This document shows, in pieces, positions 4,599 through 62,494 of a DNA stretch of 64,000 nt. The translations under genes and the position numbers were made by a program. The stretch spans positions 62,001 through 126,000 of the forward strand of contig PABK01000041.1 in assembly GCA_002699145.1 (NCBI GenBank), written 5' to 3'. This DNA is from Halioglobus sp. (GTDB taxonomy: Bacteria; Pseudomonadota; Gammaproteobacteria; Pseudomonadales; Halieaceae). Every line of letters starts with the position of its first letter. The stretch's first letter is position 1. A model generated the notes under the pieces. That model did not search any database. It was given only the letters and a program-made list of their open reading frames with translations, and was not told where the DNA came from.

Positions 4599-5079
4599 GC
4601 TGGTGGTGTTCGTGGCCGCCGGCGTAGGCGCCCGCCTCGGGCAGGAACGGCGCGCACTCCGGCACGGTGTGCAGGCCGAGCTGCCGCAGCATGTCCTCCA
4701 GCACATGGTCCGGGGTGATGCGCAGCCAGCGCTCGCCAACCTGCATTTTCACGTGCCGGTTGCCCAGGTGATAACAGGCGCGCGCGAACAGCCGCCAGTC
4801 ATCGCTGCTGGCGTGCAGCACGGCTTCGGCGGCGGCCTCGACGCGGAAGCGGCGCCCGCATTGCGCCAGCAGCACCTCGCCTACCTGCAGCACCTTGCCG
4901 CGATCGAGAAAGACGCGCAGTTCGTCGCCGGCCAAAGTGCGCGCCCTGAACCGGCCCTTCTCACGCTGCAGGTGATCCAGCACCACGGTGTCATCGACAG
5001 CGCGCTGCGCCTCGACGCCCAGGCGGTGACGGACCTCGTAGCTCGCGCAGGTCTCCATGGATATCGTCATGCGCTTCAC
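4582..5079 (-). CDS. ureE: Urease nickel metallochaperone UreE
   Basis: About 165 residues. It binds nickel at the dimer interface and supplies UreG. The C-terminal metal-binding domain contains the conserved NRH-K segment (GNRHVKMQV), and the extreme C-terminus is a histidine-rich tail ([12 protein letters not shown]) typical of UreE. The GTG used here overlaps the ureC stop by 4 bp; an in-frame ATG at 5070 is an equally plausible start three residues later, and neither has a strong ribosome binding site, consistent with coupling to ureC. Confidence 0.95.
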
Positions 5080-43111: not shown

Positions 43112-44462
43112 GTAAATATTTTTTTCGCACTTTTTTCTCAGCGGCGTCCTTCAAGCTGACTGTTGAGTCTCCATATCCTGCTGCCGCAACCAGTCCATCG
43201 ACATGTACTTGCGGGTTCCCCAATTGGTGCTTGCTATGTGGCGCAGCCTGGCGCCGACCAGCATCACAGCTGACTCCCCGTCAGGGAAAGCACCCACGAC
43301 GCGTGTGCGGCGCCGTATCTCCCGCATGATGCGCTCCAGAGGGTTGTTGGTTCGGATCCTCAGCCAGTGAGTCTGAGGGTAGCTGTAGAAGCCAAGTGTC
43401 TCATCAATGCAGCGCTCCACCAGATCAGCAGCCTTTCGGAGCCGCATGGCTCTAAGGTCCTCGACAACCTTAGCGGCCTTCTCCTGCGCCGCCTCGCGGC
43501 TCTCCTGAGCATGAATCGCCTTTAGCATAGCCGATACCTGCTGCATCTTCGCCCTCGGCACATGGCTGAACACGTTGCGGTAGAAGTGGACGGTACAGCG
43601 CTGCCAGTCGGCCTCCGGGAAGTACTCTGCTGCCGACTCGCTGAGACCCATGCAGGCGTCGGAGATGATCATCCGTACCCCTTCGAGGCCACGGGACTTC
43701 AGGTGCTCCAGGAAACTACTCCAACCAGACTTATCCTCCTTGTGGCCTTCCTGAACGCCAAGAATATGGCGGTAGCCATCCTGATCAACGCCCACTCCGA
43801 CTAGCACGGAGACATTGCGGACCTCGCCGGCCCAGCTGCGCTTCAGCACGATCCCGTCCAGGTACACGTAGGGGTATTCACCCTAAATCGGGCGATTCCG
43901 CCAGGTCTCGATGTGCTTGTAGACCTTTTTGTTGAGTTTGCTGACGGTGCCAGAGCTGACGCGGGTTCCCCACAGGGCCTCGGTGATATCCTCTACCCGG
44001 CGGACCGAGACGCCAGCCAGGTACATCTCCATCAGGGCTTCTTCGATGGAGGTCTCCCGCCGCTTGTAACGCTCTATGATCGCTGTCTCGAAGGTCTGCT
44101 TGCGCAGTTTCGGCATCTTCAGCTTCACCTCGCCGGCTTTGCTGTGGAAGCTGCGCTCGTAGTGGCCGGCGCGGGTATCAACTCGATCGGGGCTGCGTTC
44201 GTAACGCTGGGCCCCGCACATGGCGTCTGCCTCCGCATCCAGCATAGCGTTCAGTGTCTCCTCAACGGTGCCGCGCACCAGCTCACCGAGGTGATCCTGT
44301 ATCCTGGCATCATTGATCTGAACGACTTTACCCAAGGCCTGGCTCTCGCTATCTTGGCTCATGGTGGTGGTTCTCCTTTGTTGTTGGATTAAGCTTCGCA
44401 ACTCAATCGTATCAACTTGGAGGGCCACCGCCTCTATTTCAAAAGTGCGAAAGATAATTTAC
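43112..44462 (-). mobile_element. IS256-family insertion sequence
   Basis: About 1,351 bp, the normal size. Imperfect ends GTAAATATTTTTTTCGCAC (left) and GTAAATTATCTTTCGCAC (right, reverse complement) face each other. They enclose one transposase gene. I see no clear 8-9 bp target duplication, which suggests an old or rearranged copy. Confidence 0.8.
43151..44362 (-). pseudogene. IS256-family transposase interrupted by an amber codon
   Basis: The protein is complete apart from a TAG at 43883-43885 in RNRPI*GEYPYVYLDG, where relatives have Glu (GAG to TAG, one base). Both halves are in the same frame. The DDE catalytic residues are intact: Asp in YLDG, Asp in IISDACMG and Glu in NNPLERIMREIRRRTRVVG. 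A read-through product would be ~403 residues, normal for the family. Without read-through the element cannot move by itself. Start at the ATG of MSQDSESQ. Confidence 0.88.
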
Positions 44463-44487
44463 GTTATCAGACTGACTCTACATCCTT

Positions 44488-45177
44488 ATGTCCACAGCTT
44501 GCATCTCCCAGTTCAGAAAGCGACTGTATAGCAAATGGCTACCTGGCTTCTGTCACGCTCCCCACAGAAATCTGTCTACCTCTGGATTCAAAGAGCAGTC
44601 GCTCGACAATCTTAGCGAACATGATGCTCTTTGGTTCTTGAGGGCCATTGAGCTTGACTTAGTGACTGAAGCAGACGGCTTCTTTACTGCCCCGCTCAGT
44701 AGAGCCAAGGAGCAGATATTCTGGACTGGGTCTCGAAATGTCGATCCAAGGCCATTAACTCTATGGATAGAACCCGTGATAACAATAGGTGCCTTAGCCA
44801 AGCTAAACCTTTCCCATAAGTGGCCAGCAGAGAAACTGGGTACACAATCTCAAACGTGGGCCTTCGACCTCGTTGGATATGGTGACACCGAAAATCACGA
44901 ATTTCTCGCATGCGAAGTAAAGAAGACCACACGAGAGATCGATTTACTGATAGAGCTGATGAAGCAATACGGAGCCGATGGCTCGATCCAAGAGCCGGAA
45001 AAGGCGAAAGAAAAAAATGCGTATAGAAAGTCAGAGGGAATTCGCCGAACTTGGCCTTCTGTTTTCTGGGCACTGGGACCAAATAATTACAGTAAAGTAT
45101 TCGATGTAATAAAACGGAATGAGCGTGAGTTTGAACTAGTTGAAATGGGTAGTGATCGGCTTACCCGCTCAACCTGA
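44488..45177 (+). CDS. Possible PD-(D/E)xK nuclease, island gene
   Basis: 229 residues, AT-rich relative to the chromosome, starting 26 bp beyond the IS256 end, so it may be truncated at the N-terminus. The segment FDLVGYG followed 10-15 residues later by CEVKKTTREID fits the D-x(n)-ExK metal motif of PD-(D/E)xK nucleases. Beyond this I recognise no family. Possible defence or mobile-element function (inference). No clear Shine-Dalgarno is seen. Confidence 0.6.
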   Translation: MSTACISQFRKRLYSKWLPGFCHAPHRNLSTSGFKEQSLDNLSEHDALWFLRAIELDLVTEADGFFTAPLSRAKEQIFWTGSRNVDPRPLTLWIEPVITIGALAKLNLSHKWPAEKLGTQSQTWAFDLVGYGDTENHEFLACEVKKTTREIDLLIELMKQYGADGSIQEPEKAKEKNAYRKSEGIRRTWPSVFWALGPNNYSKVFDVIKRNEREFELVEMGSDRLTRST

Positions 45178-45277
45178 AGGCCAGGTATGCCTATAATCGT
45201 TGCAGCGAAGTACATCGGTATTCGCTCCATTGAATTGATCGTCGCAAAATCAGTTTAATGAATGTCGGTGCCCGCCG

Positions 45278-45691
45278 TTAATGATGAAGAGCTTTGTTGT
45301 GGAAGCCCTCAGTGATGCCGTTGCTTTTGCTAAAGCGCCACATCGCAAGAATGGCTTCCATCCAACTGGTCAGCGTCTTGGCCAGGGCTCTCAGTGGGCC
45401 ATCCCCCAACTGCTCGAGTAACGCCATGTATGCCGGCAGCTTGCGCTTCGCACGTCGGGCAGAAAGCATCTTGAGCAGCATAAAGCGGACCAGCTCTTGC
45501 TTGGCCGCGTACAACGCTTGCAGCACCGGGTAATCTGCCAGGTAGGTCATCAGGTTCGCATGCTGCTCATCACTTAGATGCCACTGGTGACGGCGCATCA
45601 GGCTGATGAGCCCCCGGTTCTTGCGCCCTTCCGGATTATGCTGCTTGAGGATCGAGATAATCTGTTCTGCGGTGTAGCGCTTGCGCTTCAT
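45278..45691 (-). pseudogene. Chimeric IS3 OrfA / ISL3 transposase fragment
   Basis: 137 codons. The first ~18 residues (MKRKRYTAEQIISILKQH) are the start of an IS3-family OrfA. From about residue 25 onward the protein is the C-terminal part of an ISL3 transposase (LTSWMEAILAMWRFSKSNG then ITEGFHNK). The catalytic core is missing, and it ends soon after EGFHNK where ISL3 proteins continue. It must be a fusion made by a deletion or insertion between two elements. Confidence 0.75.
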
Positions 45692-45897
45692 ATTGGGATC
45701 TCCTTGAATCTAAAATAGATGGAAATCCCACATCCTGCATGGCTCGAATTACGGGGATACGGTCAAAATTAATTATAAATATTTTTTTGTTTGTGAGGGA
45801 GGAATTTAAACCTGTGCATGGCGAATTACTAGTTCATCAACAATATCAATGAGTTGATGGTTGCTGCAACCAAGCACCTTGCCTACCCTCGTACTGC
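45692..45897. other. AT-rich intergenic scar
   Basis: Very AT-rich stretch (e.g. AATTAATTATAAATATTTTT). It includes GAATTACGGGGATACGG, a phrase that recalls flanks of IS200-like/REP transposase genes. The left end of the next element begins at 45809. Confidence 0.4.
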
Positions 45898-47002
45898 ATG
45901 AAAGATGCTATTTTCCTGCTATTCAACCTTCTGTCAGCCATCACCAAACTATTCCAGCCGGGTGGCAGCAGAGCTGTCATCGCCGAGAACCTGCTCCTGA
46001 AGCAGCAACTGATTATCCACAGCAGATCTAGGCAAAGGGCACCGAATCTGACTACAAAGGATCGCACTCTCCTCGGCTTTCTCTCGCTATTCCTAAGTCC
46101 AAGACGCCTGGTCAGATCGGCGATCATCATCAAGCCATCCACCCTGCTGTCTTTCCACAACGCACTGAAGAAACGTAAGTATCGCCGTCTTTATTCGCCA
46201 CGAGGCGGCAAGAAGCCAGGGCCGAAAGGTCCATCCAGGGAAGTCATCAATGCCATTGTAGAAATGAAGCAGCGCAATCCACGATACGGCTGCCCGCGTA
46301 TCGCTCAGCAGATCAATCTGGCATTCGGTCTTGATCTCGATAAGGACATTGTCCGGCGTGTACTGGCTGTCCACTACAAGCAAGACCCATCCAACCACGG
46401 ACCTTCCTGGTTGACCACCCTCGGCCACGCCAAGGATAGCCTATGGAGTGTCGATCTTTTCCGTGCGGAGTCCATTACCCTGAGAACGTACTGGGTCATG
46501 GTAGTCATGGATCAATACACCCGCAGGATCATTGGCTTCGCTGTCCGCGCTGGCAACGTAGACGGCCTTGTAGTCTGCCGCATGTTTAACGACGCTACAT
46601 CAGGCCAAGGCTGGCCGGAACGAGTCAGCTCAGATAATGATCCACTATTTCAATACCAACGCTGGAAAGCCAATCTTAGGGTGCTCGATATTGAGGAGAT
46701 CAAATCGCTGCCACATGTGCCAATGTCACATCCGTTTGTGGAGAGATTGATTGGCAGTGTCCGGAGAGAACTACTGGATCAGACCTTCTTCTGGACTGCG
46801 ACTGACCTGGAAAACAAGCTCAGGGTCTATCAGGCGTATTACAACGAGCATCGCTGCCATTCGAGCCCGAGTGGCCAGACTCCTGCCAAATCAGGCACCA
46901 ACGATGTCGTGAGTATCAGCAGCTATCGCTGGAAGAAGCATTGCCGCGGGCTATTTCAGCTACCGGTAGCAGCTTGAATTTGGAATTCGCCAGGGACAGG
47001 TT
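45809..47002 (+). mobile_element. Integrase-type transposon bounded by 19-bp inverted repeats
   Basis: AACCTGTGCATGGCGAATT (45809-45827) and the reverse complement AACCTGTCCCTGGCGAATT (46984-47002) match at 16 of 19 bases. They enclose a single DDE integrase gene and its AT-rich upstream region, 1,194 bp in all. No target-site duplication is visible. Confidence 0.75.
45898..46977 (+). CDS. DDE integrase/transposase (rve domain)
   Basis: 359 residues. N-terminal helix-turn-helix region followed by an rve core with the catalytic triad Asp in WSVDLFRAE, Asp in SSDNDPLF and Glu in HPFVERLIGSVRRE. The C-terminus has YNEHRCHSS, as in IS481/IS3-like enzymes. It looks intact. It is the only gene inside the element defined by 19-bp inverted repeats. 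Confidence 0.88.
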   Translation: MKDAIFLLFNLLSAITKLFQPGGSRAVIAENLLLKQQLIIHSRSRQRAPNLTTKDRTLLGFLSLFLSPRRLVRSAIIIKPSTLLSFHNALKKRKYRRLYSPRGGKKPGPKGPSREVINAIVEMKQRNPRYGCPRIAQQINLAFGLDLDKDIVRRVLAVHYKQDPSNHGPSWLTTLGHAKDSLWSVDLFRAESITLRTYWVMVVMDQYTRRIIGFAVRAGNVDGLVVCRMFNDATSGQGWPERVSSDNDPLFQYQRWKANLRVLDIEEIKSLPHVPMSHPFVERLIGSVRRELLDQTFFWTATDLENKLRVYQAYYNEHRCHSSPSGQTPAKSGTNDVVSISSYRWKKHCRGLFQLPVAA

Positions 47003-48795: not shown

Positions 48796-50091
48796 ATGGC
48801 AAACGCCCCGGAGCAGACCGCACAGGACAACCCGGAAGAGTTCTACCGATCGCCCACGACTACCCCGGAGGCGGACCCCTGGGCGGTGCCTCTTGAAGAC
48901 ATAGACCTTGCCACGGGCGCCATTTTCCAGGCCCAGAAACACCACGAGTACTTCAAGCGGCTGCGCCAGGAAAATCCTGTACATTACCACGACAAGAACC
49001 CTGACATCGGCCCCTACTGGTCGCTGACCCGCTACGAAGACATCATGGCGGTGGACACCGACTTCCAGCGGTTTTCCTCCGAACCCTCCATCGCCCTGTT
49101 CGATGAAGTGCTGGGCGAACAGCGGGCGCCCATGTTCATTGCGATGGACCCGCCCAGGCACGACGAGCAGCGCGCGGCGGTGATCCCAGCCGTCGGGCCG
49201 GTACGATTGAAAGACCTCGATAAACTGATTCGCGAGCGCACGGTGGAAGTGTTGGACGGCTTGCCCACGGGTACGCCATTCAACTGGGTCGACAAAGTCT
49301 CTATCGAACTGACCACCCGCATGCTGGCGACCCTGTTTGATTTTCCTTTCGAGGAGCGCCGCAAACTGACCTTTTGGTCCGACGTGATCACCACACCGCC
49401 TTACCTGATGGGCATCACCATCGACGATCGCCTGAACCACCTGGCCGAGTGCCTGCAGACCTTCACCGGCCTGTTCAAGGAGCGCCAGTTCGAGGGCAAC
49501 GAGAGCCAGGACTTCATTTCCCTGCTGGCCAACAACCCGGCCACGGCCGACCTGGACGGGGTGGAACTGCTGGGCAACCTGATGCTCCTGATCGTCGGCG
49601 GCAACGACACCACGCGCAATTCCATGTCCGCGGGCGTGCTGTTCATGCACGAGAACCCCTCGGAGTTCCAGAAGATCAGGAATGACGAGTCGCTCATTAC
49701 CGCCGCGGTATCGGAGATCATTCGCTACCAGACACCGCTGTCCTACATGCGCAGGACCGCGAAGGAAGACGTGGAAGTCGGCGGCAAGCTGATCAGGAAA
49801 GGCGACAAGGTTGCCATGTGGTATGCCTCCGGCAATCGCGACGAGTCTTTCTTCCCGGACGCGGACAAGTTTATCATCGACCGCCCCAACGTCCGCCGCC
49901 ACATGGCCTTCGGCTTCGGCATCCACCGCTGTATGGGCAATCGCGTGGCTGAGGCGCAACTGCGAATCGTGTGGGAGGAGATCCTCAAGCGCTTCGACCG
50001 GCTGGAAGTGGTTGGCGAGCCAGAGCGCGTAGAGCACAGCTTCGTGCACGGCATCAAGGACCTGCAGGTGATTGCACACCCCAAAGCCTGA
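48796..50091 (+). CDS. Cytochrome P450 (CYP153-like)
   Basis: 431 residues, soluble. I-helix GGNDTTRNSM, K-helix ExxR in EIIRYQTPLSYMRR, and heme loop FGFGIHRCMGNR with proximal Cys379; this form of the heme loop with GNR is typical of CYP153 alkane/terminal hydroxylases and relatives. It should hydroxylate or epoxidise a hydrophobic substrate. It needs a ferredoxin, encoded 40 bp downstream, and a reductase not found in this window. Confidence 0.95.
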   Translation: MANAPEQTAQDNPEEFYRSPTTTPEADPWAVPLEDIDLATGAIFQAQKHHEYFKRLRQENPVHYHDKNPDIGPYWSLTRYEDIMAVDTDFQRFSSEPSIALFDEVLGEQRAPMFIAMDPPRHDEQRAAVIPAVGPVRLKDLDKLIRERTVEVLDGLPTGTPFNWVDKVSIELTTRMLATLFDFPFEERRKLTFWSDVITTPPYLMGITIDDRLNHLAECLQTFTGLFKERQFEGNESQDFISLLANNPATADLDGVELLGNLMLLIVGGNDTTRNSMSAGVLFMHENPSEFQKIRNDESLITAAVSEIIRYQTPLSYMRRTAKEDVEVGGKLIRKGDKVAMWYASGNRDESFFPDADKFIIDRPNVRRHMAFGFGIHRCMGNRVAEAQLRIVWEEILKRFDRLEVVGEPERVEHSFVHGIKDLQVIAHPKA

Positions 50092-50131
50092 ATGCCCTGG
50101 CTAGAATTATGATTCGTTACGGAGAGACACC

Positions 50132-50452
50132 ATGACCAAGATCCACGTCACCGACGCCAGCGGAGCAAAGCATATCGTGGAGGCGCCCAACGGCGACTCC
50201 CTGATGAGTGCGCTATTGAACGCCGGTATCGAGGGGATCCTGGCGGACTGTGGCGGCGGCTGCGCCTGTGCCACCTGCCACTGTTACATCGAAGGCGACG
50301 GCATGGACCTCGTGGGCGAAGTGAATGCGATCGAAAACGTCATGCTGGATTCCGCCGCCACGGAACGTCGCGACAACAGCCGCCTGTCCTGCCAGATAGA
50401 CGTCAGTGACGCACTGGACGGCCTGCAGGTCACGGTGGCCGAGAACGCATGA
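50132..50452 (+). CDS. [2Fe-2S] ferredoxin
   Basis: 106 residues, adrenodoxin/putidaredoxin type. Cluster ligands are C-x5-C-x2-C in DCGGGCACATCHC plus a distal Cys in LSCQIDV. The RLSCQI context is typical of P450 redox partners. Starts 40 bp after the P450 stop with GGAGAG upstream. It passes electrons from a ferredoxin reductase to the P450. Confidence 0.95.
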   Translation: MTKIHVTDASGAKHIVEAPNGDSLMSALLNAGIEGILADCGGGCACATCHCYIEGDGMDLVGEVNAIENVMLDSAATERRDNSRLSCQIDVSDALDGLQVTVAENA

Positions 50453-50561
50453 TCCTGCGCGGGGATAGATCGGCGCCGACTCCGGGACCGGGCCCGGACC
50501 TGTGAACAGCCATCCAACAGTCTCCCCATCTGGCAGTTGAAAGTATCCCGCCCCTGGGGCG

Positions 50562-51164
50562 CTAGCGTTTAAGCTCGGCTTCTACCTGCTGCAACCTGTC
50601 CTTGCCAAAGAACATCTCGTCACCGACAAAGAACGTGGGAATGCCAAACACACCCCGCTCTACCGCCTGCTCGGTGTTCTGGATCAGCTGCGCCTTGATG
50701 GCCGGGTCCTGGGTTCTCTCAAGCAGTGCCTGGCCGTCCAGGCCCGCGTCGTTCATCGCCTGTACGAAAACCTCGGGGTCATCCATTTTCAGGCCGGATT
50801 CCCACATGGCCGCGAGCCCTGCGTTGATATAGCGGTCAAAGGCGTCGCCCTCGGCCGCAGCAATGGCCCCACGCATCAGCGTGAGCGTGTTGATCGGGAA
50901 GTGCGGATTGAACTGGAACGCCGTCAATGAGTGTTCGTCGATAAAGCGCTGCATCTCCTTCTGCTCGTAGTGCATCTTGTTCTGGACATGGCCATAGGCC
51001 GAGAACGGGGCCTGGTTGCCTGTCGCCTTGAAAATACCGCCCAGCAGGCAGGGGATGATTTCCAGTGACGCACCGGTCCGCTCCAGGATGGGCGGCAATA
51101 CCTTGTAGGACAGGTAGGCGTTGGGACTGGCGAAATCAAAGACAAACTCGAGAACGTTACTCAT
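50562..51164 (-). CDS. DsbA-family 2-hydroxychromene-2-carboxylate isomerase / kappa-GST-like
   Basis: 200 residues with a thioredoxin fold and long helical insertion: FVFDFASPNAYLSYK with the glutathione-site Ser, HFPINTLTLMRGA, GVFGIPTFFVGDEMFFGKDRL. The family uses glutathione as a cofactor (HCCA isomerase) or conjugates it (GST kappa). No dioxygenase of naphthalene type is nearby, so a general glutathione-transfer role is more likely in this cluster. Confidence 0.9.
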   Translation of the reverse strand: MSNVLEFVFDFASPNAYLSYKVLPPILERTGASLEIIPCLLGGIFKATGNQAPFSAYGHVQNKMHYEQKEMQRFIDEHSLTAFQFNPHFPINTLTLMRGAIAAAEGDAFDRYINAGLAAMWESGLKMDDPEVFVQAMNDAGLDGQALLERTQDPAIKAQLIQNTEQAVERGVFGIPTFFVGDEMFFGKDRLQQVEAELKR

Positions 51165-51219
51165 GGGTCTCTCCGAGGTGTGTTGTGTTCATGCGATAGA
51201 TCGATCCCGCGCACCCGTT

Positions 51220-51987
51220 TCAGGGCGCGTGGTTCCACCAGGCCAGGTCGGAAAACGCCCTCAGATCGAGCTCATGCGTCCAGGCGGACCGGTGCTGCCG
51301 GGCAACGTGAAAATAGGTTTCGGCCATCTTTTCCGGCAACAGCAGCCCGTCGTGCTCCATGCCCTTCGTTTCGCGCAACTGTTGATACAGCTCCGGCCCG
51401 AGCATTTTCCCCAGCGTGTCCGGCGCGTCCACGGCACCGTCGATCAGGATGTGTGCAACATGAATTCCCCGGGACGCGTACTCGGCATTCAGGGTCTGGC
51501 AGAGCATACGACGCCCGCCCATTGCCGCCGCATGCGAGTGTTGCCCGGCATTCCCGCGAACAGCAGCCGTTGCCGATGTGACCAGGAGGGTACCACCACC
51601 GCGCTCCACCATCAGGGGCATGAGCACTTTCGCGAGACGAAACAGGCCCATACAGGCCATCTGCCAACCCAGTTCGAATACTTTCAAGGTGGTGTCTTCA
51701 AGGGAACGGCCGCCGATCTGCGCGCCGAGATTGAACAACACCACCTCTATGGGCCCGATCTTCTCCACGTCGGCGACGAGGTCCTCAATCGCGCCTTCTT
51801 TCACCGCGTTGACGAGGTGGCCGCTGGCGGAAGCGCCCTCTGACTCGATGGCGCTGACCAAGTTGTTCAGGCCTTCTTCGTCACTGCGCCGGCACAATGC
51901 GGCGTGATAGCCCTCCAGGGCGAATTTGCGGCCGACACTACCGCCAATACCTGCGCCGGCGCCGATAACCAGACAGACTTTTTTCAT
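51220..51987 (-). CDS. Short-chain dehydrogenase/reductase with altered active site
   Basis: 255 residues from the ATG of MKKVCLVIG (GGAG 7 bases upstream; two further upstream starts lack this). NAD(P) loop GAGAGIG and the Ser of TSAT are present, but where SDRs have Tyr-x3-Lys the sequence is HSHAAAMGG: both Tyr and Lys are missing. Related SDRs have Phe instead of Tyr but keep the Lys. It may be a divergent dehydrogenase or a non-catalytic partner. Between a CoA-transferase and a GST-like isomerase. Confidence 0.88.
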   Translation of the reverse strand: MKKVCLVIGAGAGIGGSVGRKFALEGYHAALCRRSDEEGLNNLVSAIESEGASASGHLVNAVKEGAIEDLVADVEKIGPIEVVLFNLGAQIGGRSLEDTTLKVFELGWQMACMGLFRLAKVLMPLMVERGGGTLLVTSATAAVRGNAGQHSHAAAMGGRRMLCQTLNAEYASRGIHVAHILIDGAVDAPDTLGKMLGPELYQQLRETKGMEHDGLLLPEKMAETYFHVARQHRSAWTHELDLRAFSDLAWWNHAP

Positions 51988-52011
51988 CTCGTTCTCCATC
52001 ACAATTTCACC

Positions 52012-53199
52012 CTACTCAGAGGCCAGTACCTTGTTACCGGCAACCAGCGCCTCGACCTCGTCATCTGTATAGCCCAGCCGACCCAGGATTTCACGGCTGT
52101 GCTGGCCGAGCCTGGGGCCTGGCCCCGCTATCCCGGCGGGCGTTTTGTCAAACCGGGCAGCGGGCCGTGGCTGGCGTACTTCCCCGAACCCGGGATACTG
52201 GATTTTCTGGATGGAATCGTTGGCGATGATTTGTTCCTGCTCAATCAACTCCATCCGGTTCAACAGCGGCGCGCAGGGAACACCTTCACGATCAAGACGC
52301 TCCAGGATTTCCTCGCTGGACCACTTGATAATCTCTGCCGCGGTGATGGTCTTGCGCTCCTCCCCATTGACGAACCGGTCGGACGAGGTCTTGAAGCGAG
52401 GATCCTCGATCAGGTCCTCACGCTCTATCGCCCTGCACATTGCCGCCCACTCCTTGTCGGAGACCGCACCGGCGGTGATGTAGCGATCTTGCGTCTCGTA
52501 GATGAGGTCCATCTTCCCCTGGAACTGGGTCACGTCGAACTCCATGTCCGCAAAGGTGAGGCCGGCCATGCCCTCCGGCCAGAAGAACGACAGCATGGTA
52601 TCGAGCATCGAAAGGCGGATGTGCTGGCCTTCACCCGTTTTCTCCCGGGCGTAAAGCGCTGAAGAGATAGCCTGGGCTGCGGCCAGAGAAGTCACCTTGT
52701 CCGCGATGATGATTCGAAACATCTGCGGCCGGCCGGTTTCGCGGTCTGCCTGTATATCCGTCGCACCGGTCAGAGCCTGTATCACCGGGTCGTAAACGCG
52801 TTTGTGGGTATAGGGGCCATGTTCGCCAAAACCACTGATGGAGACGTAGATCAGTTTCTCGTTGATCTCACGCAGCACTTCCTCCGAGAAGCCCATGCGT
52901 TCAATGGCTCCCGGCCGGAAATTCTGGATGAACACATCGGCGGACTCTGCCAGTTGCAGCAGTATCTTCTTCCCCTCCTCCGATTTCAGGTCCAGCGAGA
53001 TGGATTCCTTGCCCCGGTTACAGGAGAAAAAGCCCGAGGCCACCCCATTGTGGGGCGGCCCGATATGACGCATCTGCTCACCTGCCAGCGGCTCTACCTT
53101 GATGACATGCGCTCCCTGGTCGGCCAGCATCATGGAGGCCACCTGCCCCGACACCATGGTTGTGAGGTCAACGACTTTCAATCCGTCAAGCGGTCCCAT
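52012..53199 (-). CDS. Family III CoA-transferase (CaiB/BaiF)
   Basis: 395 residues. N-terminal PLDGLKVVDLTT, CoA-binding fold ADQGAHVIKVEPL, nucleophile Asp137 in RVYDPVIQALTG, typical GRPQMFRIIIADKVTSLAAAQAI (in part) and ARFDKTPAGI later. It moves CoA between carboxylic acids. AGGAG precedes the ATG; it overlaps the GST gene by 14 bp at its 5' end. In isoprene degradation IsoG is of this family. Confidence 0.93.
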   Translation of the reverse strand: MGPLDGLKVVDLTTMVSGQVASMMLADQGAHVIKVEPLAGEQMRHIGPPHNGVASGFFSCNRGKESISLDLKSEEGKKILLQLAESADVFIQNFRPGAIERMGFSEEVLREINEKLIYVSISGFGEHGPYTHKRVYDPVIQALTGATDIQADRETGRPQMFRIIIADKVTSLAAAQAISSALYAREKTGEGQHIRLSMLDTMLSFFWPEGMAGLTFADMEFDVTQFQGKMDLIYETQDRYITAGAVSDKEWAAMCRAIEREDLIEDPRFKTSSDRFVNGEERKTITAAEIIKWSSEEILERLDREGVPCAPLLNRMELIEQEQIIANDSIQKIQYPGFGEVRQPRPAARFDKTPAGIAGPGPRLGQHSREILGRLGYTDDEVEALVAGNKVLASE

Positions 53200-53842
53200 T
53201 GGCGACTCCTCCAAACAGGTCGGGGTAATTGATCTGCATCGCGCGCTCATAGGCCGCTCGTTGCGCGATGCGGTCCCGGTATTGCGCCACGACCGGCGGC
53301 AGTTCCACACCGTAGAACAGCGCCCAGTCCAGGCAGGACACCAGTAACAGGTCGGGGAGACTGAAGCCCTGCGCCATCAGGTGCTCGTGGTTGGCCAGGT
53401 GCTGCGCCAGGACGTCGAGATGCCGCTTGAGATAGCCTGCTGCAGACGCGATGACCACCTCGCTCGCACCGTAAATGTCCGCGAGATCGCTGTGCCTGCG
53501 CATCACATACAGGCTGGTCTCGTCGAGCTCGCCAAATATGTAACAACACCACTCATCTTCTTTCGCTTTCGCCTCGGCGGTAGCGGGCAGGTAAACCTCC
53601 CCGTTCGGATACGTACCGAGCAGGTAGCGGCAGATCGCCACGCTCTCGGACAGCCGGATATCGCCGTCCACCAGGAACGGGATCTTCTGCTTGCGGTTCA
53701 TCCGGGTGTATTCCGGGGTCTGCGTTTCACCGGTCCTGGGGCCGATGGGCATGACTTCGTACTTGAGTCCGAGCTCCTCCGCCAGCCAGATGGGGCGCAG
53801 GCTGCGAGGGGTACCCGCACCCCAGATCCGTATCGTTGACAT
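53186..53842 (-). CDS. Glutathione S-transferase
   Basis: 218 residues. N-terminal thioredoxin domain (IRIWGAGTPRSLRPIWLAEELGL with a possible catalytic Ser, IPFLVDGDIRLSESVAICRYL) and helical C-domain (FSLPDLLLVSCLDWALFYG). Start at the ATG of MSTIRIW. The gene is first in the minus-strand set GST, CoA-transferase, SDR, isomerase, and divergent from lysR. Probably opens or conjugates an electrophile with glutathione. Confidence 0.92.
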   Translation of the reverse strand: MSTIRIWGAGTPRSLRPIWLAEELGLKYEVMPIGPRTGETQTPEYTRMNRKQKIPFLVDGDIRLSESVAICRYLLGTYPNGEVYLPATAEAKAKEDEWCCYIFGELDETSLYVMRRHSDLADIYGASEVVIASAAGYLKRHLDVLAQHLANHEHLMAQGFSLPDLLLVSCLDWALFYGVELPPVVAQYRDRIAQRAAYERAMQINYPDLFGGVANGTA

Positions 53843-53893
53843 GGCGGCTCCTCCAATTGTCACCAAGGTAGCAACCCGCCTGCCCGAAAGATA

Positions 53894-53916
53894 ATGAATA
53901 GTTTTTAGTAGTTCAT
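53894..53916. promoter_or_regulatory. Candidate LysR operator
   Basis: ATGAA-N13-TTCAT (53894-53916) in an AT-rich 80-bp stretch between lysR and the GST gene, with further ATTTAAAAT and ATGGAATACAT segments. Fits the LysR-type half-sites of the divergent promoter. Confidence 0.5.
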
Positions 53917-53969
53917 TTAAAATATGGAATACATGTAACGACCCAAGCCCATGACAAGAGGGGGCAGCA

Positions 53970-54863
53970 ATGGATGTCAGAGATATCGAGTTGATACACG
54001 CGGTGTACGAGGCCGGCAGCCTGTCCCGGGCCTGCACTCGACTGAACATGTCACAGCCCACCCTGAGTAAAAAGCTGGCGCGCCTCGAGCACGTAATGGA
54101 TACAGAGCTGTTTCACCGCTATCCCAAGGGCCTGGTGCCTACCGATACGGCACGCTACATCCTGTCCAGGGCGGAACCCCTGCGCGCGCATCTCGCGGAA
54201 ATCGAACGCCACGTTCAGCTGATGACCCAGCTCGACAAGGGCCGGCTGAACCTGGGCGTGGGACCGATCATTGAACAGGTGATGCTGCCTGAGGTACTGA
54301 AAACGTTCGTCGAGTCCACCGGGGAAGTGGAACTGTCCATCGTGACAGAGAACGAGGAAACCTTGCTCTCTATGTTTTGGGCTTCGGAGCTGGACATCGT
54401 CGTAGGCCCGTTCCAGGCTCAACAGCAAAAGGATGAACATATCGTGGCCATGCCGATGATCACGGACAGGATTATCGCCGTGGCAAGGCCGGGCCATCCG
54501 GTCTTCGATTCGAAGACGGTCGAGATGGATACGCTCATCCACTATTCATGGGTGGCGCCCAAGCCCCAGGGTACGGTACAGCAGATCGGGGATCACCCCA
54601 TCTTGAGCAGAATGAAGGTCCTGTCGGACAACTACGACATCCTGAAGAAACTGACGATATCCTCGGATGTGGTTTGCGCCGGCCCACGAACGGTGTTCAA
54701 AAGCGAGCTGGATGCAGGCGCGCTCAGCGAGATATCCGTTTCGTTGGACGTGACCTGGGAAAGCGCACTACTGGTAAAACCCGAGACGTATGCCACTCCA
54801 CTCGCAAAGCATCTGGTGGCAACCTTCGAGTCCGCCAGAGCACGACACCAAGGCGTCGCCTAG
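53970..54863 (+). CDS. LysR-family transcriptional regulator
   Basis: 297 residues with N-terminal winged helix-turn-helix (DIELIHAVYEAGSLSRACTRL, SQPTLSKKLARLE) and a LysR substrate-binding domain. Divergent from the GST operon, so probably its regulator, responding to a pathway intermediate. Confidence 0.92.
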   Translation: MDVRDIELIHAVYEAGSLSRACTRLNMSQPTLSKKLARLEHVMDTELFHRYPKGLVPTDTARYILSRAEPLRAHLAEIERHVQLMTQLDKGRLNLGVGPIIEQVMLPEVLKTFVESTGEVELSIVTENEETLLSMFWASELDIVVGPFQAQQQKDEHIVAMPMITDRIIAVARPGHPVFDSKTVEMDTLIHYSWVAPKPQGTVQQIGDHPILSRMKVLSDNYDILKKLTISSDVVCAGPRTVFKSELDAGALSEISVSLDVTWESALLVKPETYATPLAKHLVATFESARARHQGVA

Positions 54864-54939
54864 CACAAACCTCCTGCTACACCTTCCAGGTTTTGGCACT
54901 GGCGCCTTCGTTTATTTCGACCTGGTCAGTCGCAACCCG

Positions 54940-56196
54940 TCACCGATCAAAGGCCAGGTCCAGCGCTTCCAGCGCGCGCAACGTAAACCCCGGCACATGC
55001 TTGAGCTCATCACTCCCCCGCGCCAGGCGTATATTCTTCAAGCGCCTCAACAGCACGGAAAACGCCACTTTCATTTCCATGCGCGACAGCGGTGCGCCCA
55101 TGCAGTGATGTTGCCCATGGCTGAACGCCAGGTGGGTGGCCGCGTTTGAGCGAGTAATGTCGAAGACGTCCGCCTCGCTGTACTGGCCATCATCGCGGTT
55201 GCCCGCGGCAAAGCGTAAATGCACCATGGAGCCTTTCGGGATAAAGGTTTCACCCACAGTGGTGTCCTGCACCGTATAGCGGTACAGTCCCTGGGTCGGG
55301 GACTCGTAGCGCAGGCATTCCTCGACGAAACCCTTCACATACCTGTCGATGTCGCTCAACAGCAAGTCCATCTGCCCGGGATGCTGCAGCAACAGCAGCA
55401 TGGCCGAGGCCATGGCATTGTTGGTGGTCTCGTTACCACCGACCAGCAACTGCTCGGTGATGGACAGCAGTTCATTTTCCGTGAGGGGCCGCCGGGTACC
55501 GTCCAGCGCGGTATAACTGCAGTTCACAAGATCGGAAATGACACGGCCGTCGGGCTTACGTCGCTTTTCGTCAAACTTCTCGACGAGATAGGCCTTTAGC
55601 TCAACGTGTTCCAGGGCGTACCTGTAGGCCGACTCGCTGTCATTGTTCATCGCGAAGGGCGCCACCCAGGCGATAGACCAGCGCTTGAAATCCTCCAGGT
55701 CCTGCTGTGGCAGGCCGAGGAAATCAGCGATGACCATCATCGGCAGCGGATAGCAGAATTCCTCGACGAACTCGACTTTCCCCTTGTCGATGAAAGCATC
55801 GATCAGCTCGTTGGAAAGCTGTTCGACCATCGGCTGCATTGACTTGATGCGGCGGTTGGTGAAGCAATGCTCAAGCAGGCTGCGGTAGGAACCGTGCAGG
55901 GGAGGATCCGTTGACAGGACGGTGCGACTTTCCCATCCTCGTTCGCTGAACAGCCGTTTGATGTCCGAATAGTTGTCGTAGGGATGCCCGCCATCCTGTG
56001 TGGTATCGATGGAAAAGACCTCGGGCTCACGCACAATGCGCCAGATGTCCTGGTAGCGCGAGACGACGTAGTGCCCGGTCTCGGGCATCTGGAACACAGG
56101 CCCTTCTCGATAGACCTTGTAGGCGTGATAGGGACATGCCTGCACCGCCGGATCAAGCAGGCTGTAATCCGCCGGGCTTTCCTTTGGTCGGGTCAC
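54940..56196 (-). CDS. Cytochrome P450
   Basis: 418 residues from a GTG with GAGG 8 bases upstream. I-helix GGNETTNNAM, K-helix ECLRYESP with Glu-x2-Arg, heme loop FSHGQHHCMGAPLSR with Cys365. This is a different P450 family from that at 48796. No ferredoxin lies next to it; the [2Fe-2S] ferredoxin at 50132 may serve both. A putative monooxygenase (ABM) gene is 29 bp upstream in the same operon. Confidence 0.94.
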   Translation of the reverse strand: MTRPKESPADYSLLDPAVQACPYHAYKVYREGPVFQMPETGHYVVSRYQDIWRIVREPEVFSIDTTQDGGHPYDNYSDIKRLFSERGWESRTVLSTDPPLHGSYRSLLEHCFTNRRIKSMQPMVEQLSNELIDAFIDKGKVEFVEEFCYPLPMMVIADFLGLPQQDLEDFKRWSIAWVAPFAMNNDSESAYRYALEHVELKAYLVEKFDEKRRKPDGRVISDLVNCSYTALDGTRRPLTENELLSITEQLLVGGNETTNNAMASAMLLLLQHPGQMDLLLSDIDRYVKGFVEECLRYESPTQGLYRYTVQDTTVGETFIPKGSMVHLRFAAGNRDDGQYSEADVFDITRSNAATHLAFSHGQHHCMGAPLSRMEMKVAFSVLLRRLKNIRLARGSDELKHVPGFTLRALEALDLAFDR

Positions 56197-56225
56197 AACA
56201 GGTTCCTCGCGATTCGGCCCATGGT

Positions 56226-56627
56226 TTACTGGCGGTGAGCCTGCCACCATGCCTGCACCGCAACGGGATAGCTTGCAGCGGCCGCCTTGATGGCCTCGCT
56301 GGCGCTCCCGGGCAAATTACCTGACCCGGTGGCGCCCATTGGCGCGGCGTCGCCCACCGGGTCGACCCACTCCATATCGAGCGTTTTTATCATCGAGGCG
56401 AAGTCGAAACCCTCGTGGTAATCGCTGACCTGATGCTGCAGGAAGGCGTGCCAGTCGGTGAAACTCAGCAGGCAGTAGTAGAAATTCGGCCGGGCGCCCC
56501 GGTAGTACTCGTAGCGTATGCAGTTTGGCTCTTCGGCATGCGTGCGGCGGTACATCTCCCTGGTGACCGCTTCAAATTCCGCTTCCATGCCCGGATTGAT
56601 TTCAATATGACAGAGCAGCGTGGCCAT
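56226..56627 (-). CDS. Antibiotic-biosynthesis-monooxygenase (ABM) domain protein
   Basis: 133 residues: ABM alpha-beta barrel half (ATLLCHIEINPGMEAEFEAVTREMYRRTHAEEPNCIRYEYYRG in part, FTDWHAFLQHQVSDYHEGF) followed by a C-terminal helix. Family members are cofactor-free monooxygenases, heme-degrading or quinone-forming enzymes, or isomerases. The ATG of MATLLCH was chosen. Lies directly downstream of a TetR-like operator. Confidence 0.85.
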   Translation of the reverse strand: MATLLCHIEINPGMEAEFEAVTREMYRRTHAEEPNCIRYEYYRGARPNFYYCLLSFTDWHAFLQHQVSDYHEGFDFASMIKTLDMEWVDPVGDAAPMGATGSGNLPGSASEAIKAAAASYPVAVQAWWQAHRQ

Positions 56628-56651
56628 GCATCTCGCCTTGCACAAGTGAAT

Positions 56652-56669
56652 ATGTTAACACGTTAACAT
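56652..56669. promoter_or_regulatory. TetR-type operator
   Basis: ATGTTAAC-AC-GTTAACAT is an 18-bp palindrome with perfect 8-bp arms, followed by a third half site GTTAATAT at 56673-56680. It lies between the divergent ABM/P450 operon and the TetR gene, where it could control both. Confidence 0.7.
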
Positions 56670-56772
56670 TACGTTAATATGCTATCAAACTGTTATTGCC
56701 TTCAGTGATCTGCAAGAATACAGGCCCTGCTTGCCCACCCCTGGAGAGCCCGGCCTGCAGCAGCCAAACACC

Positions 56773-57513
56773 ATGAAACTCGTTGAAGAACAAGCACTTG
56801 AACGTCGTGAGCGGATTCTGCAGAGCGTGCGCGACTGCATTGCCACCCAGGGGGTGCTGGAACTCACCATCCGCGACCTGGCGACGGCCTGCCGGGTGTC
56901 CGTGCCCACGCTGTACCGGGGCTTCGGCAGCAAGGAGCAACTGCTGGTGGAGGCGGTCAGTTCGTTTTTCAATTCGGACGTCCTGGGAGACAAGCTCGAC
57001 AACACCGGGCATACCGGGGCGTCGCGCCTGCTGGCCATCATCGACCTGTGCAGCCAGACCATCGAGGAGTTGCCCGAATACAACCAGCAGCTGTTCAGGC
57101 TGTTTATGAACTCCGACTACGGCGGCCGACTGGGTTGGGATATCACCGAATCCATCTGCCAGGCAGCCCGCCAGGCGCTGGACGAAATCAGGCAGGCAGG
57201 AGAACTGCGCGACGGCGTTGACCTTGATGTCCTGGCCGAACGCATCGCCGCACAGTGCGTCATCACCGTGCTGGAATTCTGCAACGGCGATATCGCTATC
57301 GATGGCTTTGCGCCAACGTTTGGCTACAGTGCGGCACTGCTGGCCTCGGCGGTGACAACAGGCAGGGCGCACAGCGCTTTTACCGAACGTGTACAACAGT
57401 CGCAGGCAGGGGCGCGCCGCCAGCACAACGCGCGCCTGAGCAGGACGCCGGGGCAGGTCGGCGCGGGGCCGGACGCTGCAGGTACAGCGAATCACTCTGC
57501 CACCGCTGGCTGA
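56773..57513 (+). CDS. TetR-family regulator
   Basis: 246 residues: N-terminal TetR helix-turn-helix (TIRDLATACRVSVPTLYRGFGSKEQLLVEAV) and a helical ligand domain with a disordered C-tail. I use the ATG at 56773; a TTG at 56731 is also open. Likely a repressor of the divergent P450/ABM operon and of itself through the palindrome at 56652. Confidence 0.88.
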   Translation: MKLVEEQALERRERILQSVRDCIATQGVLELTIRDLATACRVSVPTLYRGFGSKEQLLVEAVSSFFNSDVLGDKLDNTGHTGASRLLAIIDLCSQTIEELPEYNQQLFRLFMNSDYGGRLGWDITESICQAARQALDEIRQAGELRDGVDLDVLAERIAAQCVITVLEFCNGDIAIDGFAPTFGYSAALLASAVTTGRAHSAFTERVQQSQAGARRQHNARLSRTPGQVGAGPDAAGTANHSATAG

Positions 57514-59182: not shown

Positions 59183-61603
59183 CTAGCGCTGATGTCCTTG
59201 CTCCCCTTGTCGGCCAGCCTCACCCAGCGACAATATCCAGTCGACAACCGCGTTGATCTCGCTACTGGTAAGCTGTGGATGAGGCGGCATATGCGTATCG
59301 CCCCAGACACCCGCGCCACCTTCCAGGATCTTGCCGGCCAGGTAATCACTGTCCCGCGCGCTATAGCGCGCGGCCACCTGCCGGAAGCTGGGCCCGTTGA
59401 CCAGCGCTTGCTCATCATGACAACCGAGGCAGCCCGATGTATGCACCAGGCGCTGCCCCTCGGGCAGGCCCGCCTCGAGCTCGGGTTTTCCAATCAATGC
59501 CTCGTTATCGGCGTCGGTGCCCTGGGCGTGATAGCTGATACGGTTGAGGCTCGCATCCGGGTTCCGCTGCTTCCATTTGCGACCGTACTCCAGTACGTAC
59601 AGATTGCCATCGCTGGCGAACAGCATGTCCATGGGGTGAGAGAACTGGTGATCCGGCAGGAAGGGCTCGACCCTGCGCAGCCTCGCTCCCGTCCTGTCGA
59701 AATGCCCGACCGCTATCCAGTCGCGCGCCCATTCGTAAAGAAACAGGCCACCTTCAAAGTACGCGGGAAAGGTGTTTACCGACTCCGCGAAATTCTCCCG
59801 GTAGAACACTGGCCCCACCATCGGGTTCACGCCGCCGGCGCCGGGCCAGGGGAATTCGGGCTGCACGCCGTAGGAGTACCAGACGAAGGCCCCCCTGGAG
59901 GGAGGCAGTTGGACCAGTCCGTTACTGTTCGGCGAGTCGTTCCGCGGACGCTGCGGATCAAACGGAGCGCCGCTCTGGCTGCGCGCGAAATCGTAGTCCA
60001 CGTAGGGCTGGTTGTTGCCCACACTATAGGGCCAGCCCCAGAAACCCGCCTCGGTGGCCCGGTTGAATTCCCCCATACCCCGGGGGCCGCGCTCGGGGTC
60101 GGCTTTGCGCGCATCCGGCCCCAGGTCCGCCCAGATCAGGTCGCCGCTCGCGCTATCGAGCGTAAAGCGAAACGGGTTGCGACAGCCCATGATGTAGATT
60201 TCGGGCCGGGTCTGCGCGGTGCCCTGAGGGAAGAGATTGCCCTCGGGGATGGAGTAGCCGCCATCGTCCTGCACCGTGATGCGCAGAATCTTGCCGCGCA
60301 GATCCATGCTGTTGGCCGCTGAGCGCTGTGCATCCCAAAGGGCATGCCCCGGGCGCTCGTCTATGGGCGTAAACCCCTGCGACTTGAACGGGTGGGTGTT
60401 GTCACCGACCCCGATATAAAGCTGCCGATCCCTGCCAAACTCCAGGCTACCGCCGCTGTGGCAGCATTCACGATCGGTGGGTATTTCCAGCAGAATCTTC
60501 TCCGAATCGGCTACCAGCTTGCCAGCTTCGAGTGTAAACCGGGAGATACGCTGCAGCGACTGTTCAAGCGGCGCGGTATAGAACAGGTAGATCTAGTGAT
60601 TGTCGTCGAAATCCGGGTCCACCGCGAGCCCGAGCAGGCCGTCCTCGTGACCGTAGAAGACATCCAGTTTTCCCAGCACCCTGGTTTGCCCCAGCGCGAA
60701 GTCATGAAATTTGACCGATCCCCGGCGTTCAATGAAGATAATGCCCTCCCCGGGGATTTCATCGAGTTCCATGGGTTCGTCGAGGTTCTGGTCGAGTATC
60801 TCGCGCTTGAACCTGCTCTGTTCCGGCATCGCGTGCAGGGCAGATTCATCCCCCATTGCCCAGGCGAGGCCGCCCGCCAGGTGACTGAGAAACCCGGGGG
60901 CCTCGTAACTGCCCCGGGTGTGGCCCATCGCCGTGTAGAACACCCGGCCACCGTCATATACCCGGTACCAGGCGATGGGGTGATGCTCGCCGTTGGTGCC
61001 GCCGCTGTAGCTGGACTCGTCAATCTCGATAAGCACACTGGAGTCCGGGACTATATTCCGGAAGTTGTACCACTCATCGACCCGCCGCCACAGTGACGGC
61101 AATTCCCAGGTCGCCGGATGCCCTGCATCAACGACGCGTAGCAGGCCTTCCTGTGTCTTCGGATGGCTGTCGAAGCGGGCGCCAACCAGTTGGCCATACC
61201 AGTCCCAGTCGTATTCCGTATCCGCCGCAGCGTGGATACCGACAAAACCACCACCACCCTGGATATAGCGCTCGAATGCCTCTTGTTGAGTTGCGTCAAG
61301 AATATCGCCCGTGGTGTTGAGGAACACGACGGCAGCAAACTCAGCCAACTGCGCTTCGTTAAATACACCGGCGTCCTCACTCAGGACCACCCGATAGCCG
61401 GCGTCGCTGCCCAGCCGGCGCAAGGCATCCCGCCCGTCGGCAATCGACTTGTGGCGATAGCCCTCGGTCTTGCTGAAGACCAGTATGGCGGCCGATTCAT
61501 CACTCCAGCGCGGATCGGGCGTGCCGCAGGAACTGAACAGAATAAAGGTCGCGGCGCCGCCAAGGAGCAGGATCGCTGTCGCGATTACGGTCACTGGCTT
61601 CAT
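59183..61603 (-). pseudogene. ThuA / PQQ-like sugar dehydrogenase / cytochrome c lipoprotein fusion, broken by an amber codon
   Basis: A 807-codon frame with a TAG at codon 337 (60593-60595) in DDNH*IYLFYTAP, where relatives have Trp (TGG to TAG, one base). Segments in order: lipoprotein signal (Cys26), ThuA domain (~38-250), glucose/sorbosone-dehydrogenase-like beta propeller (~285-700) and a C-terminal cytochrome c (heme motif CLGCH, axial Met in HMPPHP). Such proteins oxidise sugars extracytoplasmically. Without read-through only the ThuA part and the start of the propeller are made; ATG at 60307 could restart the rest. Confidence 0.88.
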
Positions 61604-61939
61604 TCGGTAGCACTCTCGGATCACAAACAAGAAATTCACGTTCACCCGGCCGGTTACGCCAGCCCTGCACATCCACCACCCGCAAACCCGGCAACGGCTT
61701 CCTGTCGAATGGAGCACCCGGCATCCTAGCAAACGGCTCGCAGTGCTGTCCTGACCCCGAGGCAGGTTTTGCGCTGTCGCGCGGCCGGCATCGCGCTGTC
61801 TCCCTGGCCGTTGCCTGTGCCGGGCGCGGCCGCCACCTGGCCGCGGGAAGCCCGTGACTTGTTCGCACCGGCACGAAGCCCTAGACTGGCCTCCCGGTGC
61901 AGAATCCCGACCGACAGCGACAATAATCAGGGGAGTCCC
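61604..61939. other. Divergent intergenic region
   Basis: No gene is seen. TTGTTC, 17 bp, TAGACT (61859-61887) is a promoter-like pair reading right, about 50 bp before the gene at 61940. Confidence 0.45.
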
Positions 61940-62494
61940 ATGAAGCTCAACCCCAACAATACATGGCGCCTGGTCCAGGAGCGCATGGAGCGCGAAACCG
62001 ACGCCAGGATCCGGCGCAACCTGGAACTCGTGCTGCAACACATGAAAGCCGAGGCGCAGGGCGACATCGAGGGTGTCGTCGCAACGCTTTGCGACAGGCC
62101 GCGCTACCTCGCACACGACGCACCGCATGACGAGGGGCTGAATCCCTCGTGGAGCAAGGACGCGGTGCGGGCGTTCTACGACATGACGATTGTGCAGACG
62201 GGCGCCCATCAACTCGAACTGAATTGCGACCGGGTGATCGCCGACCACGAGGCGGTGATGACCGAGGGTGTAATGCGCATGGCCTACCCGGGCCACACAC
62301 TGGCCTCGTTTGGCATCGAGGTCGACGACCCGGACGCCTATTACCTGTACCAGACGCGGATGAGCGTCGTCTGGCCCATCGACCCGGAGTCCGGCATGTT
62401 GCTGGGCGAGGAGACCTACACCGGCACGGATGGATTCGAGGGGATCGCGCAGCGCAAGATCGGCGCCGGGGACATTGCGCCGCTGGCCATTTGA
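61940..62494 (+). CDS. SnoaL/NTF2-like protein
   Basis: 184 residues with the cone-shaped alpha+beta pattern of SnoaL-like proteins: NLELVLQHMKAEAQGDIEGVVATL, SKDAVRAFYDMTIVQTGAH. GGGAG 5 bases upstream of the ATG. Family members are small isomerases, cyclases or hydrolases; none can be assigned. Confidence 0.82.
   Translation: MKLNPNNTWRLVQERMERETDARIRRNLELVLQHMKAEAQGDIEGVVATLCDRPRYLAHDAPHDEGLNPSWSKDAVRAFYDMTIVQTGAHQLELNCDRVIADHEAVMTEGVMRMAYPGHTLASFGIEVDDPDAYYLYQTRMSVVWPIDPESGMLLGEETYTGTDGFEGIAQRKIGAGDIAPLAI

Follow-up and report, generated by a model that had tools for sequence, protein, structure and literature searches.

The 64,000-nucleotide stretch of Halioglobus sp. DNA analysed here (contig PABK01000041.1 of assembly GCA_002699145.1, positions 62,001 to 126,000 of the forward strand; hereafter the window) carries a LysR-flanked operon of four genes, encoding a glutathione S-transferase (GST), a family III coenzyme A (CoA) transferase (CoAT), a protein of the short-chain dehydrogenase/reductase (SDR) fold and a protein related to 2-hydroxychromene-2-carboxylate (HCCA) isomerases. 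This operon appears to be the core of the system and to represent a module widespread in marine Proteobacteria. Its best explanation, towards which we lean slightly, is that of a glutathione-to-CoA module comparable by analogy to the downstream steps of glutathione-dependent isoprene and styrene degradation. Such a route appears credible because the CoAT groups with the CoAT of the styrene-glutathione cluster of Gordonia rubripertincta CWB2. The module probably marks an undescribed breakdown route recurring in many surface-ocean bacteria; a literature search reaching few subscription journals found no published description of it.

Results

The initial annotation had read ten gene families in one 8.7-kb block (48796–57513) as a single P450-driven, glutathione-using catabolic cluster. 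All ten families are present there with open frames, each above its Pfam cut-off (p450 twice, Fer2, DSBA, adh_short, CoA_transf_3, GST_N, LysR, ABM and TetR_N). By strand and spacing, the genes form three units and not one operon: a cytochrome P450 (P450a) with a ferredoxin on the plus strand; the minus-strand genes GST-CoAT-SDR-HCCA, with the LysR gene divergent from them on the plus strand; and a minus-strand pair of an ABM-domain protein and a second P450 (P450b), from which a plus-strand TetR gene diverges. The module operon begins with the GST gene (53186–53842; GST_N, 5.9e-16), followed by those for the CoAT (52012–53199; CoA_transf_3, 1.6e-105), the SDR-fold protein (51220–51987; adh_short, 6.3e-23) and the DSBA-fold, HCCA-isomerase/kappa-GST-like protein (50562–51164; DSBA, 3e-33), the nearest solved relatives of which are HCCA isomerases and kappa GSTs. 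With the likely starts taken from homologues (GST 53842, CoAT 53199, SDR 51987), the GST and CoAT genes overlap by 14 bp and the CoAT and SDR genes are separated by 24 bp. The LysR gene (53970–54863, plus strand) is divided from the operon by an intergenic stretch at 53843–53969. The block holds no other canonical GST.

Three GSTs used as queries against genome contigs found 431 relatives; the analysis retained the best 80, so that the adjacency counts describe the nearest relatives. Gene calls in the fetched loci are longest-frame picks, and names outside the searched families were read by eye. Thirty-one loci are titled SAR86, and the rest come from Halieaceae, OCS116, PS1, OM182, Pseudohongiella, Rhodobiaceae, AqS3, Bradyrhizobium, Afipia and further groups. 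In 77 of the 80 loci, the GST has a CoAT no more than 3 kb away; the two share a strand in 61 and their frames stand less than 50 bp apart in 68. The loci without a CoAT near the GST are L079, L084 and L105; L084 contains the second GST copy of genome G087, the first copy of which (L254) has a CoAT, and L105 ends 370 bp past the GST. The flanks contain a window-type SDR in 39 loci, an HCCA protein in 25 and a LysR regulator in three (blastp, 1e-10). Even at E ≤ 1e-3, the fetched flanks of these loci, which are full (at least 9.5 kb on both sides) in 55 of the 80, contained no relative of P450a, P450b, the ferredoxin, the ABM protein or the TetR regulator. This ruled out the whole 8.7-kb block as one conserved cluster. 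The conservation that the initial annotation expected of the entire block is thus confined to the unit of LysR and GST-CoAT-SDR-HCCA, the only one of the three units that is conserved. In one SAR86 locus (L051, 11822–15191), a family search recognised three further GSTs after the CoAT, one of them over the NF008731 cut-off, and a fourth was seen by eye.

The CoAT tree comprised 52 rows: 19 module CoATs (16 from the 80 loci, selected to be well spread, the window, a Bradyrhizobium plasmid and genome G035), the Gordonia CoAT, three intermediates and 29 background CoATs (18 of the 21 loci L190–L210, eight of the nine other CoATs of the window's own genome and three from Escherichia coli). Excluded were the module copies L182–L186 and the remaining own-genome CoAT, L120, which matched only partially; IsoG of the isoprene pathway was also outside the tree, and the Gordonia CoAT stands in for it. 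The 19 module CoATs formed one clade (support 96/84), the sister group to the Gordonia styrene-cluster CoAT, and together with L221 and L222, from two genomes of one genus, they formed a clade supported at 98/94. Frc, YfdE, CaiB and the eight other own-genome CoATs fell outside this clade, the nearest of the latter, L115, joining the next node (100/99) with L223 and L190; no topology test was applied, and the long branches of CaiB, Frc and three own CoATs leave their placement unsure. The module CoAT was ruled out as a carnitine or oxalate enzyme by scores below the cut-offs of those models and by its tree position. Against plasmid records, the window CoAT matched Bradyrhizobium best (50.3%), then Gordonia (43.8%), and the first match of the Gordonia CoAT after itself was the Bradyrhizobium module CoAT (42.9%).

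In L222 (6659–8553), from another family of the same order as the window genome, a Gordonia-group CoAT adjoins a YfcG-type GST (49% identity to StyJ), a minimal second arrangement of CoAT and GST; no GST was recognised beside the CoAT of L221. CoATs of the Gordonia/module clade often adjoin GST genes of several classes, and this therefore supports the passage from glutathione to CoA that was central to the initial annotation, a link carried by the 98/94 clade and by the GST-CoAT adjacency in the nearest loci.

The initial annotation further likened the GST and SDR to IsoI and IsoH, and here the family models disagreed. The window GST had no match to the IsoI model NF049950 (cut-off 300) at E ≤ 1e-3, whereas Gordonia StyI, the positive control, scored 364 bits. 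On NF010579 it scored 20.2 bits and StyJ 192.5, both under the cut-off of 332. By blastp, it matched StyJ at 24.9% identity (7e-11) and StyI at E = 1.7, with a SAR86 NF008731-type protein, YfcF and GstA about as near as StyJ. The GST was ruled out as StyJ/YfcG-like, its identity to StyJ being 25%, and no second GST of the Ure2pB/YfcG class, to which IsoJ and StyJ belong, was found in the block. T11, R13, R16 and E66 are invariant in the window GST and the aligned GSTs of 42 of the 80 loci; the first invariant place lies in a T-x-R motif in module GSTs versus T-x-N in YfcG and StyJ. The structural model (pLDDT 93) shows an unremarkable GST fold, with a Sinorhizobium GST (4nhw) as the best match by E-value and TM-scores of at most 0.84 (fungal URE2P8). 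StyI itself matched Gordonia at 100% among plasmid records and 11 other records at no more than 30.4%; it found nothing at E ≤ 1e-25 in 398 genomes of the family of G088, which proves little.

For the window SDR, 169 families gave matches, and the IsoH model NF049951 (cut-off 350) was absent from the best 25, which reached down to 53.9 bits; StyH scored 374.5 bits. Where E. coli FabG has S138, Y151 and K155, the aligned window protein has Ala, His and Met. The replacement of Tyr and Lys is plain; that of Ser is less clear, a Ser standing one residue earlier, in the column where the Ser of StyH also falls. Ala-His-Met occurs in 18 of the 19 genomes read with an SDR of about 62% identity or more (window included), the exception being L033, with Ile for Met; the Bradyrhizobium-type SDR has Ala-Phe-Lys. 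The glycine motif GAGAGIGG and the Rossmann fold are kept (model pLDDT 89; best solved match 3h7a). The conserved replacement of the catalytic Tyr and Lys by His and Met ruled out an ordinary dehydrogenase and counts against the proposed oxidation of an alcohol by the SDR. Judged by its sequence, the SDR is under selection, because it is conserved as well as or better than the GST at 62–83% identity among relatives, but not for the textbook SDR reaction.

Co-occurrence was scored in the genomes of 36 of the 80 loci, a reduction that mostly thinned near-identical SAR86 and Bradyrhizobium, against a phylum sample of 299 genomes including the window's own; the sample was not habitat-matched, and genomes of the module set are related. 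The SDR was found at E ≤ 1e-50 in 30 of the 36 module genomes versus three of 298 sampled genomes (two at 63% and one at 45% identity). The HCCA protein was found at E ≤ 1e-30 in 31 of 36 versus 32 of 298, or 27 of 293 once five module genomes, recognised by CoAT score, were removed. Among the nine SAR86 genomes within the set, the SDR was present in eight and the HCCA protein in all nine, and SAR86 genome records 0.9–1.5 Mb in size retain GST-CoAT, SDR and HCCA. In two further genomes of one genus, G153 and G149 (L259:8078–9435 and L264:6363–7866), an Ala-Phe-Lys SDR adjoins an HCCA protein, with no CoAT at E ≤ 1e-60.

Larger operons surround the module elsewhere. An alphaproteobacterial metagenome-assembled genome (MAG) carries ten co-directional module genes (L254:3203–14786) in the order GST, CoAT, SDR, a small protein with a twin-arginine-like leader (by eye), GMC oxidoreductase, DUF2855, HCCA, malate synthase G, TauD and a hydratase-like protein. 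One TauD subfamily (49–56% identity to that of L254) recurs in L031, L033, L034, L035, L036, L038, L039 and L054, and at 81% in L255; a hydratase-like protein occurs in L034, L035, L036, L038, L039 and L054, after TauD in five Halieaceae-type loci. Those parts of contigs C57, C51, C29 and C17 of the window's genome that were read contained no TauD relative, the rest of that genome not being searched. Other neighbours of the module are a KHG/KDPG aldolase ahead of it in L033 and, behind it, a PEP-mutase-family protein in L037 and an aldehyde dehydrogenase in Aquisalinus L031. Malate synthase G was found in L254 alone and suggests a glyoxylate-yielding end of the pathway. TfdA-type oxygenases release glyoxylate from oxyacetates.

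LysR regulators 52–57% identical to that of the window are divergent from the GST gene in L038, L039, L072 (partial frame), L254 and L255. The LysR-GST intergenic stretches of the window, L038, L254 and L255 have ATTCATT in common, and two of 2000 shuffled sets shared a 7-mer; in L038, a perfect 8-bp inverted repeat surrounds a second copy of the ATTCATT core. This shared motif is modest evidence because the MAGs of L254 and L255 come from one study. A promoter scan gave one site versus 3.0 expected.

Across 57 genomes (the window's own and 56 relatives), the GST had a single full-length match above 35%, at 43% in G035 of the same family, and its best matches in the 17 other genomes of the genus were at most 34% (for the 16 with a listed identity; G011 matched at E 3e-6). 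Among the copies found, those of alphaproteobacterial MAGs are nearest: L254 (G087) is identical to the window at 68% for GST, 80% for CoAT, 78% for SDR, 68% for HCCA and 57% for LysR, and L255 (G091) at 68%, 78%, 83% and 55% for GST, CoAT, SDR and LysR, respectively. Several transposase-like frames or fragments, recognised by eye, lie just upstream of the block at 43151–46977, and the G+C content is 0.52–0.585 at 44–56 kb versus 0.60–0.69 at 1–44 kb. Horizontal acquisition of the module operon is thus likely, since its nearest copies are alphaproteobacterial, transposase-like frames stand upstream and G+C is lowered.

The CYP153-type P450a (48796–50091, plus strand) is a separate unit, paired with the 2Fe-2S ferredoxin gene (50132–50452, plus strand; Fer2, 1.1e-8). 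Its CYP153-like nature, as first annotated, is borne out by 13 distinct solved sequences at 328–465 bits, CYP153A7 and CYP153D17 included, versus 223 bits for the next (no tree was built). P450b (54940–56250, minus strand) forms another unit, its gene overlapping that of the ABM-domain protein (56226–56645, minus strand; ABM, 3.2e-9), with the TetR gene divergent from both (56731–57513, plus strand; TetR_N, 9.9e-11); its best solved relative scored 213 bits, with no CYP153-type match. Neither a ferredoxin reductase nor a soluble di-iron monooxygenase was recognised among the ten block proteins searched, the remaining genome not being searched for either; for the di-iron enzyme, this agrees with its reported absence from the block. 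Of the 17 other genomes of the genus, 15 have a P450a relative at E ≤ 1e-100, with 55–59% identity. Within the 36 module genomes, the highest identity to P450a (74%) is in G087, where a very close module copy is also present but unlinked to it. P450b reaches at best 41% in a set of 36 related genomes. P450a feeding a substrate to the module is possible, the direct support being linkage in one genome. The window's own genome (5.2 Mb) has 30 P450 matches in about 24 distinct frames; P450 matches with identical scores on its contigs C17 and C45 suggest a duplicated or doubly assembled stretch.

Elsewhere in the window, frames recognised by eye resemble a urease alpha subunit (5076–6779), two TonB-dependent receptors (28872–31154 and 38987–41362) and, on the minus strand at 59183–62296, ThuA and sorbosone dehydrogenase, with a cytochrome-type CxxCH stretch.

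Discussion

Considering these results, we propose the following scenario. The GST would join an electrophilic intermediate to glutathione, or free it from glutathione. The family III CoAT may then load a carboxylic acid derived from the conjugate onto CoA, for entry into central metabolism. The HCCA/kappa-type protein would be a likely second glutathione-using enzyme, acting as an isomerase or deglutathionylase, and the SDR-fold protein, though kept, is predicted to be unable to use standard SDR catalysis. The two P450 units may supply a substrate in this genome, from outside the conserved module. The analogy draws on published work. IsoG was placed in the Frc (family III) CoA transferases, and its glutathionyl-CoA intermediate is predicted, not demonstrated (PMC10057887); deletions of isoG, isoJ and aldH abolish growth on isoprene (PMC9804861). 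In the styrene system, StyI conjugates styrene oxide with glutathione and StyJ is thought to remove glutathione (PMC8552685).

Several observations weigh against this scenario. The window GST belongs to neither the StyI nor the StyJ class. As the SDR lacks the standard Tyr-Lys pair, no enzyme in the operon would obviously carry out the oxidation of alcohol to acid known from the isoprene route, and the Bradyrhizobium-type variant of the module carries a different SDR. The SDR and HCCA genes lie outside the GST-CoAT flanks in many loci, being present there in 39 and 25 of the 80, respectively. The HCCA protein is common without the module (the 27 of 293 sampled genomes), and G177 and G339 have both the Ala-His-Met SDR and the HCCA protein, with no CoAT at E ≤ 1e-60. 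Furthermore, fewer candidates were scored for each control genome (at most eight SDR, six CoAT and ten HCCA, versus up to 73 SDR and all HCCA in module genomes); a close relative should still rank among the first.

The same genes could serve a ring-cleavage route, which we consider unlikely. The GST and HCCA protein would then be glutathione-dependent cis-trans isomerases of ring-fission products, as MaiA and NahD are; the TauD, hydratase-like and aldolase proteins seen elsewhere would finish the breakdown, the CoAT would activate the acid, and glutathione would be only a cofactor, not carried on the substrate. The window GST does match the MaiA model (4e-12), although well short of its cut-off score, and the best solved relatives of the HCCA protein are HCCA isomerases. 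The hydratase-like gene after TauD in Halieaceae-type loci and the KHG/KDPG aldolase gene of L033 would suit such a route, as would the interpretation of nahD, nahG and tfdA-like genes of SAR86 as aromatic catabolism (PMC11582366). However, among loci with neighbours read, an extradiol-type (VOC) protein stands beside the module only in L037 and L069, and the CoAT groups with that of Gordonia, whose pathway conjugates glutathione (PMC8552685). Somewhat less probable still is a role in detoxification and not growth, in which endogenous or algal electrophiles, for example unsaturated aldehydes, would be cleared as glutathione conjugates and their carbon recovered via CoA thioesters. Retention of GST-CoAT, SDR and HCCA in the small SAR86 records is consistent with this role, as is the aldehyde dehydrogenase of Aquisalinus L031, but L254, with its GMC oxidoreductase and malate synthase G, resembles a dedicated catabolic operon.

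The proposal of the initial annotation itself begins with epoxidation of an alkene or terpenoid by CYP153 or P450b, has the GST open the ring, and leaves oxidation of the resulting alcohol to the SDR and thioester formation to the CoAT; it now seems very unlikely. Gene proximity in this genome and the CoAT clade speak for it, together with the 74% identity of P450a in the module genome G087 versus 55–59% in its own genus; but the GST is not IsoI-type, the SDR is neither IsoH-type nor furnished with Tyr-Lys, and the P450 units lie outside the operon. Since the fetched flanks of the 80 loci contain no relative of either P450, a 'P450-driven' pathway draws on this one genome. The initial interpretation is therefore supported in its glutathione-to-CoA link, but not in its IsoI-type GST, IsoH-type SDR and P450-driven entry.

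One joint reading of the glutathione-to-CoA module goes further and is, in our estimate, improbable in its full form: an undescribed glutathione-carrier catabolic route of surface-ocean bacteria, in which a new T-x-R group of GSTs would load glutathione onto the substrate, the styrene-clade CoAT would make the thioester of the conjugate, the His-Met SDR-fold protein would serve as a scaffold or in a non-redox step, and the TauD/TfdA-type dioxygenase of the longer operons would cleave the thioether to free glutathione and glyoxylate, the latter for malate synthase G in one operon. SAR86 makes up as much as 6% of the surface-ocean community, and its GST and tauD were read as hydrophobic-compound/solubilising and taurine functions, with the proviso that tauD may serve another purpose (PMC11582366); the available text of a second study naming SAR86 and a GST has no bearing on the module (PMC8371827). 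If true, the carrier route would give the SAR86 'nahD', GST and 'tauD' a shared explanation other than aromatic or taurine breakdown. The GST-CoAT pair, with its co-occurring SDR and HCCA, offers a testable alternative for these genes, a single pathway from glutathione to CoA. The SDR, with its Tyr and Lys consistently lost, would also be a clean case of this fold reused for another task.

Compared with known systems, the window HCCA protein shares its fold and family with NahD, the HCCA isomerase of naphthalene degradation, whereas no other naphthalene pathway gene was recognised in the block. The Bradyrhizobium plasmid NZ_CP066352.1 holds four families in 3.4 kb, its SDR, GST, CoAT and HCCA proteins being 37%, 47%, 50% and 51% identical to those of the window; it differs in its Ala-Phe-Lys SDR, in having CoAT and HCCA on the opposite strand from SDR-GST, and in the acyl-CoA dehydrogenase, thiolase and AMP-binding genes alongside. 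The isoprene clusters of Rhodococcus AD45 and Variovorax WS11 (isoGHIJ, aldH) share the same three broad families, although the window GST and SDR fall short of the IsoI and IsoH models and the window block lacks a di-iron monooxygenase. In the Gordonia CWB2 cluster (CoAT, StyH, StyI, StyJ), StyI and StyH belong to other GST and SDR families, and no HCCA, LysR or TauD is named in the 21-kb stretch shown; its CoAT, however, shares a clade and 44% identity with that of the window and, like it, lies close to GSTs.

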